From Flavobacteriales bacterium (GTDB lineage: Bacteria > Bacteroidota > Bacteroidia > Flavobacteriales_D > Sanyastnellaceae): 36,485 nt of DNA. Positions 16,086 through 21,060 of the stretch are shown in pieces (position 1 is the stretch's first letter; each line of letters begins with the position of its first letter). A program made the translations under genes and the position numbers. The notes beneath the pieces are model-generated. The model saw only the letters and a list, made by a program, of their open reading frames with translations. It was not told the origin of the DNA and searched no databases. The stretch covers positions 1 through 36,485 of the forward strand of contig CANHWU010000009.1 in the NCBI GenBank assembly GCA_947464415.1, given 5' to 3'.

Positions 16086-17388
16086 TTCTTCTTTTTTATT
16101 TCCTACCAAAACTACTTCGTGGCTTTACTCTGTGCTTTATCCATGGGTAGCAAAAGGGATTGATTTATTCGTAGATGATTTGGAAGTAGATGGTCTGCAA
16201 AATATTCCAAAAGAAGGACCATTAATGTTGGTGGCTAATCATCAGAATGCTATGTTTGATCCTCTCATTTGTTGTCGAGTATTCCCAAGACAATTGCATT
16301 GGCTGACCCGTTCAGATGTATTCAAAAATAAGAAAATAGCCTCTTTTTTACACGCTATTCATATGTTGCCCATTTATCGGGAAAAAGACAATGTGGCCGA
16401 TCAAATGGAAAGGAATGAAGAGGTTTTTAAAGTTTGTAGAGAGAGGTTATCGAAGGGGGCTGTAATTGCGATGTTTCCAGAAGGTTCACATAGAGGTAAA
16501 AAACAACTCATGACGCCACTGAAAAAGGGATTCGCGAGATTGGCGTTTAGTTCGATAGAGAAAGATTCAAGGTTGATGAATCTGAAAGTTTTACCGATGG
16601 CATTGGATTATAGCAGTTTTGTGGAATACCAGCCGAAGATATTACTCAAAATTGGTCGACCGATTCCGGTGAGAAATTTTTGGGATCAGTATTTGGAAGA
16701 TCAGAGCAAGGCGATTAATCTCTTGGTGAAGGAAACCTCGGAATCTCTCTCTTCTCTGATGATTGATATCAGAGATAATGAGCATTATGATGACTTGATG
16801 CTGTTGTCTCCACTATTTAGCATGCCTCGCTCTGAAAAGGCGATACTAGGATTTACAAGGTATCAGAAATTCATCCAAGAATGGCCGAGCATGAGTGAAT
16901 CTGCTAAGAGCAATTGTATGCGCTATCTTGAAATAGCCCATGAAATGGAAATACATCCCCAATCCATGGTTCTTTATTCATCTCGGAATTGGAAGATTCA
17001 AATTGCTTATTTCGTGGAATGGTTTCCTGCCGCATTGGGAAGGTTGATTTTTGGTCCTTTGTATTTTCTAACTGAAAAATTTATTCGAAAGAAAGTGAAA
17101 GATGAGTTGTTTTATAATTCAATTCGTTTGGCTTTTTTCACCTTTTTGACTCCTTTTTATTGCTTATTGATAATGGGAGTGATAATGAGTATACTACCCT
17201 TCAGGAACTCCCTAGAAGTAATGGTCGGTTTCTTGTTTTTAGTAGCCATCGGTTTGTTCAGTATTTCTTGGAATAAAACAAGAAGAGTCAGAAGAGAAAT
17301 TAATAAGGCGAAGAGAGCCCAATTACAATTTCCGCAATTATGGCAGGAGGCCATGGAATTACAAAGTAAAATTATATCCCATGATTAA
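16072..17388 (+). CDS. 1-acyl-glycerol-3-phosphate-type acyltransferase (PlsC family)
   Basis: VANHQNAMFDPL (HX4D), MFPEGSHRGKK; ORF extended to 16027, but ATG 16072 overlapping the ABC stop is the likely start; C-terminal TM segments. Confidence 0.9.
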   Translation: MSKVNSSFLFPTKTTSWLYSVLYPWVAKGIDLFVDDLEVDGLQNIPKEGPLMLVANHQNAMFDPLICCRVFPRQLHWLTRSDVFKNKKIASFLHAIHMLPIYREKDNVADQMERNEEVFKVCRERLSKGAVIAMFPEGSHRGKKQLMTPLKKGFARLAFSSIEKDSRLMNLKVLPMALDYSSFVEYQPKILLKIGRPIPVRNFWDQYLEDQSKAINLLVKETSESLSSLMIDIRDNEHYDDLMLLSPLFSMPRSEKAILGFTRYQKFIQEWPSMSESAKSNCMRYLEIAHEMEIHPQSMVLYSSRNWKIQIAYFVEWFPAALGRLIFGPLYFLTEKFIRKKVKDELFYNSIRLAFFTFLTPFYCLLIMGVIMSILPFRNSLEVMVGFLFLVAIGLFSISWNKTRRVRREINKAKRAQLQFPQLWQEAMELQSKIISHD

Positions 17389-18445
17389 AAAGGTTGCAAG
17401 AGTCAATGGTATGCAGCATATCGGAATAGCGGTTAGTGATATGGACGTTATGTTGCCGCTATACAGAAAATTGTTTGGTCTGGATATTCCTTTTTTCGAT
17501 TCGGTTCAACCTGCGCCGCTCATGGATGTTTATACGAGGAATCAAACCATTACGAAAAGAGCGTCGATGGTGATTAATTTACAAGGAGGGTGTGCCATGG
17601 AGGTGATTCAGCCTACTTCTTTTGTACCCACCGCCAATAAGCAAGTATTTCAATGGGGCGACGTGGGTATCAATGCTGTAGTGATGAAGTCAAGGGATGT
17701 CCATAGAAGTCACGAGGTTGTATGCGGTGTTGTGGAGAGTTGTTATCCAGTGGAAGAACGTCCGGATGGAAGGGCGGTGTTCAGTTTAAAAGATCCTGAT
17801 GGAAATATCTTTCAGTTTACAGCGGATGAAAATTGGTATACGAATAATGGACATCACTCTGGAGGCGTACTTGGTTGTGTAATGGGCGTCAGTGATATAG
17901 AGAAATCTTTGCGCTTGTACTCGGATTTGTTGGGTTTTGATCAAAAAGTGTGGGATGAAACAGGGGTGTTTTCGGATTGGCAACATTTACCGGGAGGAAA
18001 TCAAAAATATAGGAGGGTATTGCTAACGGCATCCAAACCGACAGGTGGTGGATTTGCTCGGGTAACTGGGAGAAACTATATTGAATTGGTGCAGGCTTTG
18101 GATAGAACGCCCAATAAGATTTTTAAAGGGAGAATCTGGGGTGATTTGGGCTTTGTGCATCTTGGTTTGGACGTTAAGGGAATGTCAGAGTTGGGTCAAA
18201 ATTTAGCCGAAAAAGGTTTTCCATTCACTTGTGATAGCAACGCTGCACTGAGCATGGGGAAAACAAAAGTGCATTGTGTTTATATAGACGATCCCGATGG
18301 TATCTTGATTGAACTGATTGAAGTATATAAGGTTCCTATTGTGGAGAAATGGGGTATTTTCTTAAATGTAGAAAAACGCGATCCTCTTCAACCGCTTCCT
18401 GATTTCATGCTCAAAGCATTGCGCTTTAGCAGAATCAAGGATTGA
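17381..18445 (+). CDS. VOC family protein (tandem glyoxalase/dioxygenase-like modules)
   Basis: MQHIGIAVSDMDVMLPLYRKLFGLD; FSLKDPDGNIFQF; VLGCVMGVSDIEKSLRLYSDLLGFD; IDDPDGILIELIEV. Confidence 0.88.
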   Translation: MIKKVARVNGMQHIGIAVSDMDVMLPLYRKLFGLDIPFFDSVQPAPLMDVYTRNQTITKRASMVINLQGGCAMEVIQPTSFVPTANKQVFQWGDVGINAVVMKSRDVHRSHEVVCGVVESCYPVEERPDGRAVFSLKDPDGNIFQFTADENWYTNNGHHSGGVLGCVMGVSDIEKSLRLYSDLLGFDQKVWDETGVFSDWQHLPGGNQKYRRVLLTASKPTGGGFARVTGRNYIELVQALDRTPNKIFKGRIWGDLGFVHLGLDVKGMSELGQNLAEKGFPFTCDSNAALSMGKTKVHCVYIDDPDGILIELIEVYKVPIVEKWGIFLNVEKRDPLQPLPDFMLKALRFSRIKD

Positions 18446-19234
18446 TTATCGAGCGCTTTGCCTTTTTAATATTTTTCTGAATAAATGAGGGAAGTATTGG
18501 TGCAAAAACAGACTGAACAACTCCTTCCCTCCCACTCCGAATTCAATTTTATTTTGTTCCACTCCTTTAATGATTTGTTCAGCACAGTCTTTGGCACTAA
18601 TTCCTTGAGCTTGATGAGAATCCATGGCACCATCAGCTTCTCCATTGGAGTTGAGCGCGTGTTTTGAAATGTCGGTGGCAATGAATCCTGGAGTTACCAT
18701 ATGTACTTGAACATTGTCTTTTTCTACCTCCATTCTCACGCTATCATAATATCCATGCAAAGCATGTTTGGAGGCGGCATATGAAGATCTGAGGTAAAAT
18801 CCCCATTTTCCAGTGAGACTGGATATTACAATGATTTTCCCTGATTTTTTTTGGACCATTCCAGGAAGTACTGATTGCGTGAGTCTGATATGACCGAAAA
18901 AGTTACTTTCAAATATTTTCCTAGTTACTTCTATACTGGTCTCAACGGACAAAGCTCTTTGGCTAATGCCCCCACAATGGATCACGATATCGCATTGTGA
19001 ATGCTGAGAATTGAAAAGTTGTATGCCCTCTTGGATACTGCTTTCATTGGTCAGGTCGATGGGAATAATACTCGATCTTTTTGGGTTCGATAATGTACTT
19101 TGAATTTCTGATAAGCTTTTTTGATCACGAGAAGATAGGACAACAAAAGCTCCCTTTTGATGGAGCATTTGAGCCAATGCAGCTCCTATTCCTCGGCTGG
19201 CACCGATAATCCAAATTGTTTTATTGTTCCACAT
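18446..19234 (-). CDS. SDR family NAD(P)-dependent oxidoreductase
   Basis: IIGASRGIGAALA, HCGGISQRA, SSLTGKWGFYLRSSYAASKHALHGYYDS, TPGFIATDI. Confidence 0.93.
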   Translation of the reverse strand: MWNNKTIWIIGASRGIGAALAQMLHQKGAFVVLSSRDQKSLSEIQSTLSNPKRSSIIPIDLTNESSIQEGIQLFNSQHSQCDIVIHCGGISQRALSVETSIEVTRKIFESNFFGHIRLTQSVLPGMVQKKSGKIIVISSLTGKWGFYLRSSYAASKHALHGYYDSVRMEVEKDNVQVHMVTPGFIATDISKHALNSNGEADGAMDSHQAQGISAKDCAEQIIKGVEQNKIEFGVGGKELFSLFLHQYFPHLFRKILKRQSAR

Positions 19235-19268: not shown

Positions 19269-19296
19269 TTAACCATTGCTTAACCTCTATTTAACT
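19269..19296 (+). promoter_or_regulatory. Pho-box-like triple direct repeat TTAACC-N5-TTAACC-N5-TTAACT
   Basis: Hexamers start at 19269, 19280 and 19291 (exact 11-bp period), ending 10 bp before the TAATTTTG -7 element. Confidence 0.65.
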
Positions 19297-19306
19297 TTTT
19301 CTCCGC

Positions 19307-19314
19307 TAATTTTG
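19307..19314 (+). promoter_or_regulatory. Putative -7 element TAATTTTG for the response regulator operon
   Basis: TAnnTTTG match 19 bp upstream of ATG 19334. Confidence 0.55.
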
Positions 19315-19333: not shown

Positions 19334-20014
19334 ATGGCGCAACGTATTTTGTTAGTAGATGATGAGCAGGATTTGATAGATCTTCTCAAATACAATTTGG
19401 AAAAGGAAGGATTTGAAATTTATTCCGCGCTGAATGGTCGTGAAGCGGTGGCAAAGGCAAAGGAAATTGTCCCTGCGCTTATTCTCATGGATGTGATGAT
19501 GCCGGAGATGGATGGGATGGAGGCGTGCAGAGAAATAAGAGAAATCCCGGAATGTGCGAATACTATCATTGCTTTTTTGACAGCAAGAAATGAAGATTAC
19601 AGTCAGTTGGCGGGTTTTGATTCTGGAGGAGATGATTATATTCCCAAGCCGATTAAACCAAGAATTCTGATTTCGAAAGTAAAGGCTTGGTTAAAGAGAA
19701 CCGAGATTGCAGGCGTAATGCCATCTTCAGAGGTGCTATCCAATGGAGGTATTGTGATTGATAAAGATAAGTACTTGGTGACAAAGGGAACAGAAGTTTT
19801 TCAATTGCCTAAAAAAGAGTTTGAACTATTGGCCTTGCTGGTTTCTGCCCCCGGTAGGGTTTTCACCCGAGATTATATTTTGAATTATGTATGGGGAAAT
19901 GATGTTATAGTAGGCGATCGCACCATCGATGTTCATATCCGAAAATTGCGTGAAAAATTGGGAGACGAATTATTTAAAACAATTAAGGGAGTAGGCTATA
20001 AATTTGAGCCTTGA
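19334..20014 (+). CDS. OmpR/PhoB-type response regulator
   Basis: Receiver VDDEQDLIDLL, LILMDVMMPEMDG, K in PKPIKP; wHTH LPKKEFELLALL...RTIDVHIRKLREKLG...IKGVGYKFEP. Confidence 0.95.
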   Translation: MAQRILLVDDEQDLIDLLKYNLEKEGFEIYSALNGREAVAKAKEIVPALILMDVMMPEMDGMEACREIREIPECANTIIAFLTARNEDYSQLAGFDSGGDDYIPKPIKPRILISKVKAWLKRTEIAGVMPSSEVLSNGGIVIDKDKYLVTKGTEVFQLPKKEFELLALLVSAPGRVFTRDYILNYVWGNDVIVGDRTIDVHIRKLREKLGDELFKTIKGVGYKFEP

Positions 20015-21060
20015 TGAAACCTAGATCTCCCCGCGCTATTGCATTTTGGATTGCAGCAGTCATTGCCTTATTCGTATCGATTTTTTCATTTCTTTTTTTT
20101 CTTTACTTACACCAACCTTTTAAGCATTTAATTTTTATCTTGATTTTGGGTGGGTTGAGTGGTGGTGTCTCTTATTGGCTAACCAGCCAATTTATTGAAA
20201 AGTTTCTTTATCAAAAGATCAAAATCATTTACAAGAATATCCACACTTTTAAAAGTCAAACAGAGAAAAAACCAAGTATTGTGATGAGTGAGGATATTCT
20301 TCATGATATCGAATCGGAAGTTTCGCAGTGGGTAGAGGACAAAATAAAGGAGGTGAAACAACTTAAGGAGACGGATTCTTTTCGAAAGGAGTATATTGGA
20401 AACTTGGCCCATGAGCTAAAAACTCCATTGTTTGGAATACAAGGGTACTTGGAAACTTTGATGGATGATGATTTGGAAGATAAGGAACGAATCAAACTTT
20501 TTGTTTCAAAAGCCAATCGACAGGCAGATCGATTGTCAGAGCTCATTATCGATTTGGATTTGATAACGAAACTGGAAAGTGGAGCCATGCCACTCAATCA
20601 AGATAAGTTTGATTTGATTGCGTTGGTGCACAAGGTGATGATGGATTTAGAGGATTACGCGGCTACTAAGGGCATTCGATTGTTTGTAAAGGAGGGTTCT
20701 CCCAAGCAGTTGATGGTATTTGGTGATGCTTCAAAGATTGAGCAAGTGCTTACCAATTTGATTTCGAACTCTATCCATTATGGTCAAGAGAATGGAGAGG
20801 TGAAGTTTCGGTTTTATGATATGGAAGAACATATCTTATGTGAGGTTGCGGATGATGGGATTGGGATTGCAAAGGAACATTTACCTAGAATTTTTGAGCG
20901 TTTTTATCGCGTCGATAAAAGTAGATCGAGACATGATGGAGGTTCGGGTTTAGGCTTGGCCATTTGCAAGCACATTATTGAAGCGCATCAAGAAACACTC
21001 ACTGTTAGAAGCACAGAGGGAATAGGAAGCACCTTTGCTTTTACCCTGAGAAAGGTTTAA
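20014..21060 (+). CDS. PhoR-like sensor histidine kinase
   Basis: Two N-terminal TM helices, HELKTPLFGIQGYLE (H box), NLISNSIHYG (N), DDGIGI, FYRVDKSRSR, GGSGLGLAI. Likely start is ATG 20014 (TGATG overlap), not TTG 20011. Confidence 0.94.
   Translation: MKPRSPRAIAFWIAAVIALFVSIFSFLFFLYLHQPFKHLIFILILGGLSGGVSYWLTSQFIEKFLYQKIKIIYKNIHTFKSQTEKKPSIVMSEDILHDIESEVSQWVEDKIKEVKQLKETDSFRKEYIGNLAHELKTPLFGIQGYLETLMDDDLEDKERIKLFVSKANRQADRLSELIIDLDLITKLESGAMPLNQDKFDLIALVHKVMMDLEDYAATKGIRLFVKEGSPKQLMVFGDASKIEQVLTNLISNSIHYGQENGEVKFRFYDMEEHILCEVADDGIGIAKEHLPRIFERFYRVDKSRSRHDGGSGLGLAICKHIIEAHQETLTVRSTEGIGSTFAFTLRKV

Follow-up and report, generated by a model that had tools for sequence, protein, structure and literature searches.

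A phased TTAAC repeat upstream of a PhoB/PhoR-like gene pair in a Flavobacteriales bacterium as a candidate Pho box

In the 36,485-nucleotide stretch of Flavobacteriales DNA analyzed here (hereafter, the window), three TTAAC words placed at 11-bp intervals precede the promoter of a PhoB/PhoR-like regulator-kinase operon. Sequence comparison across relatives gives us good confidence that these words form a Pho box, to which the regulator encoded downstream would bind to activate its own operon and a small Pho regulon. The box is very probably a docking site for switching on the regulator's own gene and phosphate-scavenging genes; its architecture and predicted targets mark it as a Pho box that has a half-site word and a promoter type of its own. 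Defined Pho boxes exist for Proteobacteria, Bacillota, and cyanobacteria, and the Pho-type autoregulatory sites of Escherichia coli and Bacillus are textbook examples. A defined Bacteroidota Pho box was not found in our search of the literature accessible without subscription, where PhoB-dependent genes of this phylum are reported without a box (PMC3547664 and PMC8115612).

Results

Structure of the repeat and its promoter

The source stretch read directly over the box is cgTTAACcattgcTTAACctctatTTAACtttttctccgcTAATTTTG. All elements lie on the forward strand. The distal half-site, the third unit of the tandem, occupies 19269..19273, a position conserved in relatives; the middle half-site is at 19280..19284 and the promoter-proximal one at 19291..19295, in the would-be -33 position, both likewise read directly and conserved in upstream regions of relatives. 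Downstream, TAATTTTG at 19307..19314 matches the Bacteroidota -7 element TAnnTTTG, and its spacing is also conserved. The direct read confirmed what the first-pass annotation had described, namely three TTAAC starts exactly 11 bp apart, followed by TAATTTTG. The distance to the -7 element, given there as 10 bp, is 10 bp with the unit counted as a hexamer and 11 bp when measured from 19295, where the third TTAAC ends. The annotation had seen no clear -33 TTTG, and none is present at the -33 position of the window promoter. The intergenic region containing the box is 99 bp long and separates the regulator gene from a divergent short-chain dehydrogenase/reductase gene (18446..19234, reverse strand; annotation of window genes), which is not claimed as a target of the box.

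The site has direct repeats with an 11-bp period and at least two half-sites, occupies the place of a -35/-33 element roughly 10 bp above the core promoter element, and stands upstream of the regulator's own operon; boxes of this kind also stand upstream of phosphate acquisition and storage genes, as described below.

The 2.49-Mb genome contains a single exact TTAAC triple and no instance of the reversed-pattern control. Within the window, this triple is the sole match with fewer than two mismatches, the match with two mismatches being its own reverse reading. The two-copy word was not enriched genome-wide, with 6 exact matches compared to 20 for the reversed control, and 90 compared to 601 when up to one mismatch was allowed. 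The significance of the site therefore rests on its position and conservation and not on counts, and counting alone would have wrongly rejected the Pho-box idea.

Conservation of the 11-bp phase and of the spacing to the -7 element

Upstream of the orthologous regulator, TTAAC-n6-TTAAC was found exactly in 16 of 50 regions and with at most one mismatch in 35 of 50, compared to 0.05 and 0.8, respectively, in dinucleotide shuffles; these regions come from relatives drawn from 40 genera and are not statistically independent. When the gap was changed to 5 or 7 bp, the corresponding counts at up to one mismatch fell to 1 and 0, respectively. The box was present at the regulator in all six congeners and, in exact 11-bp phase, in most of the family, so that the repeats are conserved in close relatives. 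A third half-site with at most one mismatch, 11 bp above the core pair, was observed in 19 of the 35 regions, compared to 0–2 of 35 at the other offsets tested.

The spacing to the promoter was also conserved. In 25 of 35 regions, the last half-site was followed by TAnnTTYG at a distance of 10, 11, 21, or 22 bp; shuffled tails gave a mean of 0.10 and three sets of control offsets gave 0. Common descent by itself does not account for the discrete 10/11 and 21/22 spacing classes. The word has become TTAAA-n6-TTAAC in Flavobacterium-type relatives, where it was found in 27 of 78 regions at a gap of 6; the other gaps tested, between 0 and 24, gave 3 at most. Reverse-strand matches were also present at regulator promoters and are a by-product of the nearly palindromic CTTAAC word.

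Of 41 regulators, 28 had a box with at most one mismatch within 150 bp, as did 6 of 8 DUF47 genes. The same was true of 17 of 261 other genes (about 6%), several of which are themselves phosphate genes or unflagged regulators.

Identity of the regulator and kinase

The gene downstream of the box (19334..20014, forward strand) encodes a 226-aa OmpR/PhoB-type response regulator with a receiver and a winged helix, assigned by profile and identity searches. The next gene (20011..21060, forward strand), which overlaps it by 4 bp, was found by profile searches to encode a PhoR-like sensor histidine kinase, a short protein of 349 aa whose Pfam matches are limited to HisKA and HATPase_c. The best NCBI family of the regulator was PhoB TIGR02154 (198.8 bits, below the cut-off of 296.2), and its score against the Bacteroidales PhoB family NF053854 was 198.4 bits, below the cut-off of 270. 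The best families of the kinase were PnpS/PhoR, with every score below its cut-off: 242.1 bits against 334.2 for PhoR TIGR02966, 186.1 against 500 for PhoR NF053855, and 252.8 against 400 for PnpS NF046044. The Flavobacterium orthologue of the regulator also falls below the PhoB cut-offs, with 218.6 (TIGR02154) and 209.3 (NF053854) bits. Since the F. limicola kinase misses the NCBI cut-offs as its regulator does, these cut-offs are no argument against the PhoB/PhoR assignment.

Each of the 60 relatives searched had a match to the regulator, as an orthologue or homologue, and the F. limicola copy is about 64% identical to that of the window. In the F. limicola locus (L230), a TonB receptor gene is divergent from the regulator gene, which is followed by genes for the kinase and an OprP-type (Porin_O_P) porin 46% identical to the porin on contig C21 of the window genome. 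This order is that reported for F. johnsoniae Fjoh_0545-0542 (PMC8115612). By identity and locus content, the regulator is apparently the orthologue of PhoB in the Flavobacterium phoBR-oprP locus, and the initial PhoB/PhoR-like call holds on this basis despite the scores below the cut-offs.

Gene neighborhoods varied among relatives. In an order-level relative (G045), the regulator gene is divergent from a TonB-receptor-like gene and lies about 8 kb from PiT, and in another relative at the order level (G055, L037), a DUF47-like gene lies downstream of the regulator. The neighbors of the locus in the window are the dehydrogenase and a metallo-hydrolase. A glyoxalase-like gene and the dehydrogenase gene (17381-19234) are neighbors of the regulator gene, and the same neighborhood was observed in a Bacteroidetes metagenome-assembled genome (L288 919-2807) whose regulator is 61% identical; this arrangement seems to be old.

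Boxes at phosphate genes

The first-pass annotation had proposed scanning the genome for the repeat upstream of pst, phosphatase, and porin genes. Boxes were found at PiT, at a ppk1-ppx-olsF-like operon, at an OprP-type porin gene, and at a TonB receptor gene, and pairs were not enriched genome-wide. The pst part of the check was inapplicable because PstC was not detected in the search of the congeners of this genus. Four further exact pairs occur in the genome, one of them directly upstream of the DUF47-PiT phosphate transporter operon on contig C21. The half-site words of the PiT sites are TTAAC/TAACAT. At the PiT loci of all seven congeners, the box is placed 10 bp above a -7-like nnnnTTTG element.

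We combined box and promoter into the composite pattern TTAACn7TAAC-n10-11-nnnnTTTG. Across 7 congeneric genomes, this pattern gave 9 matches, all at the regulator or DUF47-PiT, compared to 1 for the control. In the wider family, there were 27 matches; the remainder were mostly at the regulator, at TonB receptor genes homologous to that on C21 (four sites), and at an ArsR-like gene homologous to that on C21. Over all 60 genomes, the pattern showed no excess (35 compared to 41 for the reversed control).

Mismatch scanning revealed degenerate triples before the TonB receptor gene (C21 9193-9219) and the ppk1-ppx-olsF-like operon (C21 20481-20507), and a further copy precedes the porin gene on C21. 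The ppk box is degenerate in most relatives, with at most one mismatch in 5 of 27, and the porin and secreted-protein boxes do not have the 10/21-bp spacing to a -7 element. C21, which makes up 1% of the genome, contains 11 of the 90 matches with at most one mismatch (about 12%); these include overlapping readings of one site and correspond to about 7 separate places.

Contig C21 (L127 1-13000 and L128 1-12512) has the appearance of a phosphate island, with a TTAAC box upstream of most of its genes or operons. It carries DUF47-PiT, the OprP-type porin, an ArsR-like regulator, the TonB receptor, a secreted protein, and the ppk1-ppx-OlsF-like operon. The small ArsR-like regulator recurs in the island setting (L127:8884-9207 and L226:1906-2241) and has its own composite box in the relative G030. 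The third gene behind ppk1-ppx (L128:2691-4436) encodes a protein that matches the bifunctional ornithine-lipid synthase OlsF over its length, with 441 bits compared to a cut-off of 620, and may make a different aminolipid. Aminolipids of the OlsF kind are phosphorus-free membrane lipids.

Two candidate sites were rejected. A PstS-like gene (L083, G000:C158:886-1650; L077-L088) has no box and is apparently located inside an operon. The 3′ end of PiT carries an exact TTAACn6TTAAC (C21:5095; L127:5095-5110, reverse strand), which was judged probably coincidental as a promoter, because it is directly followed by an inverted repeat and a T-run.

Discussion

The conserved 11-bp phase, the spacing to the -7 element, and the phosphate-gene targets lend good support to the Pho-box and autoregulation reading that the first-pass annotation had put forward. 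In the mechanism that we propose, low phosphate would be the signal, and the phosphorylated regulator would bind the 11-bp half-sites side by side in a head-to-tail array. The bound regulator would most likely contact RNA polymerase and replace the -33 contact, since the -7 element (TAnnTTTG) has no -33 partner and stands one helical turn below the last half-site, and it would most likely activate transcription of its own regulator-kinase operon. In the genus, the same box would serve phosphate uptake through DUF47-PiT and the ppk1/ppx genes together with the OlsF-like aminolipid synthase, and probably also the OprP-type porin and the TonB receptor.

That autoregulation is positive rather than negative is suggested by this geometry and by Flavobacterium expression data (PMC8115612). 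The opposite possibility, that the bound regulator represses its own operon or that the box mainly serves the divergent dehydrogenase gene, appears improbable to us. Some OmpR-family regulators do repress themselves, only 35 bp separate the box from the start of the dehydrogenase gene downstream of it on the other strand, and this gene is divergent in several relatives; however, the direct repeats are oriented toward the -7 element of the regulator itself and phase-locked to it (25/35), the box persists in G045 (L034), where the divergent neighbor is the TonB-receptor-like gene and not a dehydrogenase, and the PiT box has no divergent dehydrogenase neighbor. Flavobacterium phoB is, moreover, induced on phosphate depletion (PMC8115612). 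Somewhat less improbable, though still unlikely, is that the regulator acts as a general envelope or redox regulator whose broad regulon includes the phosphate genes. The model for this is Riemerella PhoP, for which the published study describes 583 peaks, the core motif TTTAACA, and effects on Bat, cytochrome, and TonB genes (PMC9603813). Expression effects were, however, described there for 50 of 764 DAP-seq target genes, most showing none; the strict box-plus-promoter pattern in the genus matched the regulator and PiT only, and the Flavobacterium orthologue lies inside a phosphate-responsive locus (PMC8115612).

Two further alternatives carry still less weight. Besides this regulator, the PhoB profile found a single full-length OmpR-type match in the genome, encoded on contig C6, but its best family is RprY and its gene has no box, whereas the box accompanies the PhoB-like gene in different families; we rejected this regulator as the binder, and recognition of the box by another regulator of this type is very improbable. 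A chance AT-rich repeat or ordinary promoter composition would agree with the lack of genome-wide enrichment of the two-copy word. Such an origin, to which we give almost no weight, is refuted by an 11-bp phase and a -7 spacing conserved in relatives far beyond shuffles, and by the frequency of the box at regulators compared to that upstream of other genes. We therefore retain the reading of the repeat as a Pho box for the PhoB-like regulator.

A more general model can be offered tentatively, and we hold it to be a little short of an even chance. The Bacteroidota Pho box may consist of half-sites repeated every 11 bp, like the rungs of a ladder, in fixed phase with the -7 element, with the recognizable pair 10/11, 21/22, or perhaps 32/33 bp above TAnnTTTG, and the regulator would fill the half-sites down to RNA polymerase on a promoter lacking a -33 element. 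A lineage without Pst would then run its response to phosphate starvation through PiT, polyphosphate, and aminolipids. A fixed distance between box and -7 element makes the Pho regulon predictable in Bacteroidota, which play an important part in soil, sea, and gut. The box also provides a testable model of an OmpR-family activator working with the unusual sigma factor of this phylum.

The candidate box resembles the E. coli Pho box and PhoB in its tandem direct repeats with an 11-bp period, its OmpR-family regulator, its substitution for the upstream promoter element at some 10 bp from the core element (the -10 in E. coli), its proposed autoregulation, and its phosphate-gene targets. It differs in that the half-site is TTAAC and not CTGTCAT, the promoter is of the Bacteroidota -7 (TAnnTTTG) type, and the targets are PiT and ppk-ppx-olsF-like genes instead of pst. 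The B. subtilis PhoP box (TTAACA-like) shares the 11-bp period and is almost identical in its word, but belongs to another phylum with another sigma factor, and the kinase here is short and has HisKA and HATPase_c as its only Pfam matches.

Within Bacteroidota, the closest counterpart is the F. johnsoniae phoBR operon (Fjoh_0541-0549), in which phoB was up by 3.06 log2 on phosphate depletion; the main text of that paper gives no Pho box (PMC8115612). The two systems are alike in having apparently orthologous regulators, as judged from locus content and from the 64% identity with the F. limicola copy, and in the TTAAA-n6-TTAAC pair upstream of Flavobacterium-type copies (27/78), whereas the porin and TonB receptor genes of the window genome lie on another contig (C21), together with PiT and ppk. 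The R. anatipestifer PhoPR system, compared by its description, is similar in that a Bacteroidota regulator with a TTTAACA core motif in DAP-seq binds its own upstream region; it differs in that the reported targets are related to oxygen and virulence and are not phosphate genes, and the sections consulted describe neither a repeat architecture nor a phasing relative to the -7 element (PMC9603813). In Bacteroides fragilis, the pst promoter is bound by PhoB, and ppk, ppx, a permease gene, and porin genes depend on this regulator; the main text defines no box sequence (PMC3547664). This organism shares ppk, ppx, and porin genes with the set predicted here, but it possesses pst and has a separate NCBI family (NF053854), the cut-off of which the window's regulator misses.
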